Source: Diphasiastrum complanatum (taxonomy: Eukaryota; Streptophyta; Lycopodiopsida; Lycopodiales; Lycopodiaceae). Taken from it: 64,000 bases of DNA. The notes below the pieces were generated by a model. That model saw only the letters and a program-made list of their open reading frames with translations. It was not told the origin of the DNA and made no database searches. Positions 6,015 through 8,109 of the stretch are shown in pieces. Within the stretch, counting starts at the first letter, position 1; every line of letters begins with the position of its first letter. Location of the stretch: assembly GCA_029204225.1 (NCBI GenBank), contig CM055106.1:6167361-6231360 (forward strand). The letters run 5' to 3'. Both the position numbers and the translations under genes were made by a program.

Positions 6015-6624
6015 CTATTTAGTCATCTCTAAATCCATTTCTCCAGTTGGAAGTAGCTTGGGTGGAAAACACTTGGCCACTACAACTGGATATGAATTTT
6101 TGATCACAAGCTTTATGGTCTCCTGTCTGAAGTGCATTATCTCCATTGGAGAAACCTTCGGACATTTAAACTGAAAAAAAAAACACATAAACACAGTTAA
6201 ATGTAATTAGTCAAAGATCAGTTAATAGAAATTTGTATATGAAAAAAAAAACACAATTAAAAGTAATTAATTGAAGATTACCTCTTCCAGATTTGGAACT
6301 CCATCTTGTAATGCAAGCCAATTAAAAAAGTTTTTGGCATTGCATACGGTATACCAACCATAGCTGACATAATCAACCTGCTGGGAGGACTGCAGCCAGT
6401 CAACCGAAGGCCCATCGCTGGTTTTCAATGCTAGTAAAATATTGATTAAATATCGGATCAGCGCGCATGTTATGAAAATAAACCAATCAATAACGACAAA
6501 GGCGCGTCGAACTGATATCGAAAAAATTATTTCTTTGCATCAACCATTTTCAGCTTCAAATATGCTTTTGCATTTGGTACTAGAAAGAGTTCCAGTATTT
6601 TCTAGATATGGGTCCTAGCAATTT

Positions 6625-6717
6625 TGTGTGTGTGTGTGTGTGTGTGTGTGTGTGTGTGTGTGTGTGTGTGTGTGTGTGTGTGTGTGTGTGTGTGTGTGTG
6701 TGTGTGTGTGTGTGTGT
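6625..6717. repeat. (TG)n microsatellite at the end of C48-like exon 2
   Basis: A pure TG/CA run of about 46 units. On the minus strand it begins immediately after the codons for KMNSI, where a C48 protease would continue with its Asp-containing strand (D-S-L/I type). The splice donor of exon 2 is therefore missing or masked by the repeat. Confidence 0.97.
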
Positions 6718-7596
6718 AATAGAGTTCATCTTTAAACAAACTGGATTACACACCCCCTCATCATTGACGTACAAGGACAATACATATAAGTTCCAATGAT
6801 CACTGCAATCAGAAAACAATAAATTTATGAGAATCAATGTGAAATCAAAATTCATATGAAAAATTCAATATAACAAAATTTGAAAAAAAGACACTTACTT
6901 TGTTATGTATTGCAGCACGAGAATTGGAGTCCCCAGTCTGACGTATTGGAGCATATCATCGTGCAGACTTTTGAAATCAGGGAAATCAAATGCAGCCATG
7001 AATTGAAGGGAAAACAATGCAACATCTATAAACAATGGGGTCTGGAAAAACTCCATCCAATACTGAATTGCCCCACCTCCTAGTTTTTCCCCTAGCATTT
7101 TATCCTTACTTTCTAATTCACTTGTATCTAATCTAGAAAGGGGGAGACCAGCATTGGTCTTCGACATCCTAAAACTATATCGAAGACCTAAACCATTAAG
7201 ATACGTGTTTAACAATTGATCATATTTTACATATTGAGGACTATTTACAAAGGCAAGTGCAGGGGATGACGGAAGTAATACAGATAAACCAGAAAAAGAA
7301 TTGTCCTTCAAAATTGATTCTACCTTTACATTAACAAAATCATCTAAATCATTTCCTAGAACAGGTGGAGGAGAACCAATATTTTTGGGGGTAGGAGGAG
7401 GAGATTTATTAGGAGAGGAAGATTTAGGAGGAGAAGTTAAAGTTGGAGTTCTAGGAGGAGGAGAAAGAGACTTAGGAGGAGTATTGGGAGGAGAATGCCT
7501 AGAAGAAAGAATAGTATTCAGAGGAGATGGCTTGGAAAAATCCCTCGTTTTATTTGGAGGGTCAAGAGACCTCCTCTTCTTTGAAACACTCCCGCT

Positions 7597-8109
7597 CTAT
7601 ATATGAATAACAAGCCGGGTTGGTTGAGATTGCTTTTGTTTTCTCCTCTCTGAATCTTGTTTTTGAGGAGAGGAGGGAGCAGGTCTAAAGTATTCTACAA
7701 ACTTGTCATATGTGTCCCGAAGCCTGAACACAATATTAAAATCCTTGGGCATGATGGTCACCCTCTTGGCATAGACAGCTGCAACAACAGTATTTGAAAC
7801 AAATTTCACCTAGAAATCCTCATATGTTGTGTGAAACGTCTCAATTGCCGGTACTGTCCATCTCACATCTGCAGATAGACATCTTGTAACGTCTTTGATG
7901 GACCTCTGTATGTGAGATTTTGGAATCAGAAGATTATTTGTCTTTAGAAGCTTCCGAATATCCTTGAGTCAGGGTGGGTCTCTTCTTCTGCCCCTTGGCC
8001 TAGGAGGAGGTGATGGTGGACAAGGTGGTGGTTGTGGATTTCCTTGACCCGCATCTAAAATTGGTATTCCACCTGAATGACCTCATGTTGTCTGCTTGGT
8101 CAATGCCAT
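7597..8109 (-). pseudogene. Histone H3-like domain (part of exon 1)
   Basis: This is the portion of the fusion listed on its own because the family call is strong. With Met as 1, codons 48-132 align without gaps to the H3 fold: L48, I51-R52, L60-L61-I62, K64, Q68-R69, D81, R83, K115-R116 and V117-T118-I119-M120-P121-K122-D123 are retained. K4 of the tail is kept. R2 is Leu, R8 is a stop, K9 is Gly and S10 is His. Residues 19-46 are replaced by a Pro/Arg-rich stretch ending RGRRR. The equal loop-1 length argues against CENH3. After the fold comes a ~38-residue charged extension absent from ordinary H3. TAG at 7597-7599 ends this part. Confidence 0.85.

Follow-up and report, generated by a model that had tools for sequence, protein, structure and literature searches.

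Can a histone and a protease be encoded as a single protein, and what would carry such a gene? The question is raised by a minus-strand reading frame of Diphasiastrum complanatum (Lycopodiaceae; assembly GCA_029204225.1), found in a stretch of 64,000 nucleotides (contig CM055106.1, positions 6,167,361 to 6,231,360) that we call the window and whose own numbering is used below. A first-pass annotation, made from the letters alone, had described here a histone H3-like domain in the same frame as a C48/Ulp1-like protease domain, and had considered that a mobile element or a virus might have captured both. We have found that one protein does combine an H3-like N-terminus, an H3 fold and a C48/Ulp1-type protease region, that it is encoded by four exons and that intact copies exist. 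Taking the identity of the gene and that of its carrier jointly, it is very probable that the H3-C48 gene travels in a multi-gene family of DNA transposons with terminal inverted repeats (TIRs).

One protein with an H3 fold and a protease region

The first exon of the window gene (6899..8109, minus strand) had been read as one unshifted frame, and this reading was confirmed. From 8109 to 6899 the frame runs from MALTKQTT through a proline/arginine tail, the H3 fold and a basic Ser/Thr/Pro-rich linker to a globular stretch that ends in QYITK and forms the first half of the C48-like region. The H3 fold itself (residues 35-131; 7717..8007, minus strand) matches the Pfam family Histone, PF00125, with 58 bits (E 1.5e-15, stops read as X; cut-off 26.4). 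Alignment with the relative L041 shows no frameshift and one 18-base gap per side. Four in-frame stops lie ahead of the exon end. All four are G:C to A:T transitions, and the same codons are sense in L040 and L041 (both relatives compared), which indicates decay and not recoding; of the two explanations offered earlier, recent decay thus stands and readthrough is unneeded. The pattern would match what is expected for methylated repeats, and the window copy is, judging by its sequence, no longer functional.

Splicing in phase to a His-Trp block and to two further exons could be upheld in part. GT-AG sites fit at 6898/6802 and 6282/6170 (donors GTAAGT and GTAATC, acceptors GCAG and TCAG), but the donor behind exon 2 is gone and reads AAATAA. 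Exon 2 (6533..6802, minus strand; the boundary at 6533 was set by eye using L040) starts with NDHW, which holds the catalytic His of the C48 type, and contains CLKMNS and a CA microsatellite of 92 bases (6626..6717, minus strand). This repeat lies inside the coding exon, encodes poly Thr-His and, since its length sets the frame, is a source of frameshift between copies. Exon 3 (6282..6389, minus strand; SSQQVDYVSYGWYTVCNAKNFF / SSQQVDYVSYGWYT) starts at 6389, directly after GCAG, and holds the Gln/Cys motif of C48, with Tyr in place of Cys in the window copy. Exon 4 (6015..6170, minus strand) reads FKCPKVSPMEIMHFRQETIKLVIK...MTK and then a stop, and its L041 equivalent aligns with exon 4 of L021. 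A diverged second exon 4 is found just downstream of the gene (5461..5573, minus strand), with a local score of 81 against a mean of 17.8 and a maximum of 25 over 300 shuffles.

The same layout is real and recurrent in the genome (1.74 Gb, 5176 contigs). Using the 404-residue exon 1 of L041 as query we obtained 106 matches (103 scored of 12,665 candidates); 94 of them continue in one frame from the H3 fold to at least residue 349 and 63 extend from residue 4 or earlier to residue 389 or later, fractions that lean to complete copies because candidates were scored best first. A search with the Histone profile gave 153 matches, the best 150 of 6325 first-look candidates being scored. Among the 150 listed, 13 are of the canonical type (163.7-165 bits) and 137 score 82.8-109.5 bits; 20 of these 137 were inspected, and not all of them need be element-borne. 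With the H3 stretch of the window as query, the best 150 of 5975 candidates showed 76-87% identity, barring the window itself and one identical second copy.

We have coined the names A, B, C and W (W for the window) for the subtypes found. The type-B gene has four exons with GT-AG sites common to the copies, and intron phases of 2, 0 and 0 in four of the six spliced copies. L021 and L030 are stop-free, L022, L016, L015 and L024 are broken, and in a seventh copy, L023, the later exons are missing. The spliced products of L021 and L030, of 470 amino acids each, pass both Pfam cut-offs, with 97.3 and 94.2 bits for Histone (1e-27 and 8.7e-27) and 42.2 and 39.9 bits for Peptidase_C48, PF02902 (1.1e-10 and 5.4e-10; cut-off 20.7). 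Intact relatives of the window gene are present within the same genome; the two parts are joined in them and their C48 profile match is significant, where homologues with H3 and protease always as separate genes, or the lack of a significant C48 match, would have spoken against the first-pass reading. Downstream of 15 of the 137 H3 matches, a listed match to type-B exons 2-3 (150 listed of 272) lies at 868-1034 bp on the same strand; on the opposite strand within 3 kb of the 137 there was none among those listed. Subtypes W and B share their intron places at an exon 1 identity of about 31%.

The C48/Ulp1-like assignment of the window gene holds by way of its relatives. The protease pieces of the window alone matched no Pfam family, C48 included, and those of L041 gave no Pfam C48 match; the assignment is made because intact type-B relatives do match C48 and the window family is homologous to them. 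L041 aligns with L021 across the protease region at a BLASTP E of 4e-24, and with that of L030 at a Smith-Waterman score of 215 (maximum 63 over 500 shuffles). The best PDB matches of the C-terminal part of L030 are the Ulp1-like proteases 6dg4 (7.6e-4) and 1euv (1.3e-3); L021 matches the same structures at 0.001 and 0.0015, and its His, Gln and Cys line up with those of Ulp1. The catalytic Cys is kept in four of the six copies read in frame (L015, L021, L030 and L041). At the position of the catalytic Asp both B and W have KMNS (Asn, by eye) where Ulp1 has VDS, in a stretch that aligns poorly.

The histone part is nearer in sequence to H3 than to the remaining core histones: all 60 matches listed (of 189) for L022 exon 1 against PDB were named H3 or generic histone. 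The N-terminus starts with MVQTKQTAR in L041, MD(R/K)RKQTRR in four type-B copies and MARTESTAR in type C; MARTKQTAR was found in five of twelve type-A loci, and of these L011 alone keeps an open frame up to and into the fold. Ahead of the fold, the tail of host H3 has eight lysines; it contains ARKS, a motif absent from all nine element tails compared. In W, the one tail with its ATG (L041) keeps a single lysine, at the K4 position, and the four type-B tails with ATG have 1, 1, 1 and 2 lysines, the K4 position always among them; for L040 and L015 the stretch of tail that was read does not include the start. In type A, the long tail of L011, which begins with MARTKQTAR, has 15 lysines. At L011:4829-6064 (minus strand) and other type-A loci we have observed giant H3-like open reading frames (ORFs) with the exact MARTKQTAR, a tail of about 320 residues and a long poly-proline run, that end like canonical H3 (RRERN and a stop) and show no protease exon by eye.

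The carrier element

In type-A and type-B loci the common sequence stops sharply at inverted repeats, CATTAGGGCCCTTTTTGGACTCAAAAAGGGCC... in A and CATTAGAGGAGTTCTCAATATCAAAAAGACCC... in B, and the element ends are CATTAG. In these relatives the TIRs enclose the H3 gene together with a transposase-like ORF, so the mobile-element alternative raised at the outset has been borne out. The ends are abundant, with 858+836 genome matches for A (up to 2 mismatches) and 1177+1240 for B (up to 3 mismatches), while the same patterns read backwards as a control gave none. Two elements are complete at either end and contain an intact H3-C48 gene, that of L021 at C7:71809545-71818225 (8.7 kb) and that of L030 at C2:20439105-20448409 (9.3 kb). 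The type-B gene order was assembled across loci, L021 and L030 aligning with L022 over most of their length. One strand bears the transposase-like ORFs and H3 (L022), and the other has ORF2 before H3 and a fourth gene behind it (L023).

Fold matches of the transposase-like ORFs, obtained with Foldseek, are led by RAG1/Transib. No Pfam family matched these ORFs (proteins 1-3) at E up to 1, and for the products of ORF2 and the fourth gene that were scanned none was over the Pfam cut-off (weak matches at E 0.03-0.25). The search for transposase homologues yielded 105 proteins, one of them named from the fern Ceratopteris richardii. A 5-base target-site duplication was found in none of 12 end pairs, nor was there any consistent one, a 3-base match occurring in 2 of the 12. 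A piece of 1.1 kb bounded by both type-A inverted repeats (C1:67871296-67872435) is probably a non-autonomous derivative. Type-B ends look crowded at C1 64.9-66.7 Mb and 95-100.6 Mb (first 100 places listed), possibly by insertion preference or local amplification.

Other pieces of the element lie beside the H3 gene in the window. The N-terminal piece of an ORF2 (10195..10482, minus strand; MASSSMASDD...) matches ORF2 of L023 over 72 amino acids at 24% identity (BLASTP E 6e-6, a two-sequence comparison with composition correction and seg off). It falls largely in a 434-base element segment (10256..10689) that is inverted relative to the other listed copies, query positions 762-1195 matching the strand opposite to the flanks. 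A possible C-terminal part of ORF2 (10778..11152, plus strand) is weak (tblastn E 0.12); it lies on the strand opposite to H3, as in the type-B element, and the segment occurs beside H3 genes. In the W family the ORF2 segment keeps to one side of H3: of the 38 segments listed, not counting the window and its duplicate, 7 lie within 5 kb of a listed H3, and among the matches listed this H3 is always on the same strand, 1.2-2.3 kb off. A DNA search with window 9700-12300 was dominated by matches to a high-copy repeat at 11505-12300 (86-90% identity), which is not listed beside H3 elements and is probably nested.

A RAG1/Transib-like transposase fragment at 38409-39192 (plus strand; 47% identity over 103 amino acids to L015) lies 30 kb away from the H3 gene and represents a second element piece, which is broken. 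Outside the window, C15:6241448-6246144 holds the element region, or at least part of it, once more in inverted orientation, 99-100% identical and 65-71 kb away, either as a segmental duplication or as an assembly effect. Pieces of Copia-type and Gypsy-type retroelements were recognized near the H3 gene by ORF reading (2464-3066, plus strand, and 4380-5727, minus strand), and a tRNA scan of the window found none.

What the fusion may do for the element

Selection was examined through the ratio of nonsynonymous to synonymous differences per site (pN/pS). In seven type-B copies it was 0.27 for the H3 region, 0.64 for the linker and 0.60 for the globular part. Among L040, L041 and the window the values were 0.37-0.65 for H3, 0.63-0.70 for the tail, 1.0-1.8 for the linker and 0.41-1.08 for the globular part. 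The choice of copies affects the values themselves more than it does the contrast between regions.

On the whole we favour, with some reserve, the reading that the window gene is a decayed accessory gene of the TIR transposon family and that its protein acts for the element in chromatin. More tentatively, and somewhat short of what we would call likely, the sequences suggest an anti-silencing mechanism. The H3 fold of the element protein would enter, or dock on, nucleosomes that contain H3-H4. Its tail has kept the H3K4-like start in A, B and W and, in all nine tails compared, misses ARKS around K9/K27, so that silencing methyl marks would not be receivable on that histone, and nucleosomes with the element H3 could not take them there. 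At the element, the tethered protease might then free silencing or repair factors of SUMO or another ubiquitin-like modifier, which would ease expression and transposition. In its most specific form, in which an element with a RAG1/Transib-like transposase encodes a 'K4-only' H3 and a deSUMOylating protease, making silencing-proof nucleosomes and stripping SUMO-dependent silencing factors, the proposal is doubtful. If true, a histone made by a transposon, its tail cut down to the H3K4 end and linked to a SUMO-protease-like domain, would be a direct genetic weapon against chromatin silencing, and the H3-C48 element makes escape from silencing through the altered nucleosome itself testable.

Several observations weigh against the favoured reading. 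Besides the missing Pfam matches of the W protease pieces, the catalytic Cys is replaced by Tyr in two of the six copies read in frame (L016 and the window), and the apparent Asn at the C48 Asp position makes protease activity unsure. Just 4 of the 63 full-length exon 1 matches are stop-free, the query included. No protease exon was seen by eye behind the type-A H3 in two loci, so not every subtype needs the fusion, and in type C the K4 position is occupied by Glu. The structure model of exon 1 is poor (predicted local distance difference test, pLDDT, 33.9), and for the window copy no TIRs were found by a pair search or by matching to the A and B TIRs. In twelve type-A copies the H3 region has a pN/pS of 0.58 and the N-terminal extension one of 0.75, and all these ratios are biased down since open frames or high Histone scores guided the choice of copies.

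Passive transduplication, in which captured H3 and Ulp1 fragments ride along with no function for the element, seems unlikely to us. There are known cases of DNA transposons with host fragments carried in this way, according to the available passages of two papers (PMC3538342, PMC13317346), and full-length and stop-free copies are just 4 of 106 while pN/pS in the globular part goes up to 1.08 in one W pair. A functionless passenger would, however, be expected to lose its frame between subtypes so distant, whereas W and B keep the two-domain, four-exon layout and its intron places at some 31% exon 1 identity, and in both of them pN/pS is lower in H3 than in the linker. A little less improbable is a direct role in transposition, with H3 guiding the element to chosen chromatin or packaging the excised DNA and the protease assisting the transposase complex as a maturation or co-factor domain. 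The type-B gene does sit with a transposase-like ORF inside the TIRs, the want of a consistent target-site duplication (3-base match in 2 of 12 end pairs) means that the integration chemistry may be unusual, and type-B ends give an impression of crowding in parts of C1 (first 100 places listed); this role leaves the loss of tail lysines unexplained.

That the element captured a centromeric H3 (CENH3), which would bring it to centromeres, is very unlikely. Some residues are common by eye (LIPxAPF, AAEDY, KDF) and for the W rows identity to fern or Arabidopsis CENH3 exceeds that to host H3 by 2-4 points, but the A and B rows are as near or nearer to host H3. In the tree, which includes three CENH3 rows not drawn from a database and one element row joined by hand, a branch (93/94) sets B, C and W apart and the five CENH3 rows stand together against the element rows (97/94); in the best tree all nine element rows fall on one side, weakly (59/34). 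Constraining the elements and plant CENH3 into one clade costs 5.4 log units (approximately unbiased test, p 0.047). A CENH3 origin is thus disfavoured, by a tree that is weak because it is short and long-branched. Even less credible is an endogenous large DNA virus instead of a transposon. Some viruses carry histones, and the element is multi-gene, of high copy and made of unfamiliar proteins, but its TIRs are short and defined, its transposase fold is RAG1/Transib-like and the piece of about 1.1 kb on C1 has both ends. Scans of viral contigs returned 20 pattern stretches for transposase relatives and 7 for relatives of P0113, a C48+H3 protein described below, none of them confirmed. In its main lines the first-pass annotation is upheld.

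Comparison with known systems

The RAG1/Transib superfamily makes 5-base target-site duplications and has TIRs starting CACWATG-like. The present element is multi-gene, ends in CATTAG and has no 5-base duplication that we could find; its transposase has 12-15% identity to RAG1, Transib and ProtoRAG (PDB 4wwx, 6b40, 6pqx), with modest Foldseek TM-scores of 0.35-0.51 by query. A multi-gene, plant-type element that has a transposase of this kind but lacks a clear target duplication is relevant to how RAG-like systems have spread beyond animals.

A literature search of titles and abstract openings found no transposon-borne H3-Ulp1 fusion. The nearest case for the histone half is a hAT element of the fungus Pyrenophora tritici-repentis, in which, as the available part of the paper describes it, the TIRs enclose a transposase, an ORF of unknown role and an H3-like gene, H3L, with expressed sequence tags reported and 26 very similar genes (PMC3538342). 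Both systems thus have an H3-like gene inside an amplified TIR DNA transposon; the fungal one has a hAT transposase and, in that description, H3 alone, whereas ours has a RAG1/Transib-like transposase, an H3-C48 fusion and many divergent copies. For the protease half, the KIU/Kaonashi elements, VANDAL Mutator-like elements (MULEs) of plants, have an Ulp1-bearing accessory gene, and a review links them to hypomethylation and to silencing escape of related elements (PMC13317346). Like the present element they are plant DNA transposons in which an accessory gene bears a captured Ulp1 domain, but they are non-TIR MULEs for which the available passages mention no histone, while here the ends are TIRs, the transposase fold appears to be another and Ulp1 is joined to H3.

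Canonical host H3 has the same fold as the element copies, with 32-53% identity to their H3 region, and differs in being a protein of 136 amino acids with a lysine-rich tail, ARKS motifs and no protease. Homologue searches with type-B exon 1 (3 hits among 1072 candidates) and with the B/C/W alignment (7 hits among 7986 scored candidates) brought up divergent H3s, CENH3-like proteins and one protein that has both domains. This predicted protein, P0113 (653 amino acids; sources lgn and ena), matches Pfam Peptidase_C48 and Histone as the present gene does and has an H3-like start, MPLTKQAPRK. Unlike our gene, it has the H3 fold at the C-terminal side and its Cys block precedes its His block, so that the pairing of a histone H3 with a C48 protease may have arisen more than once.
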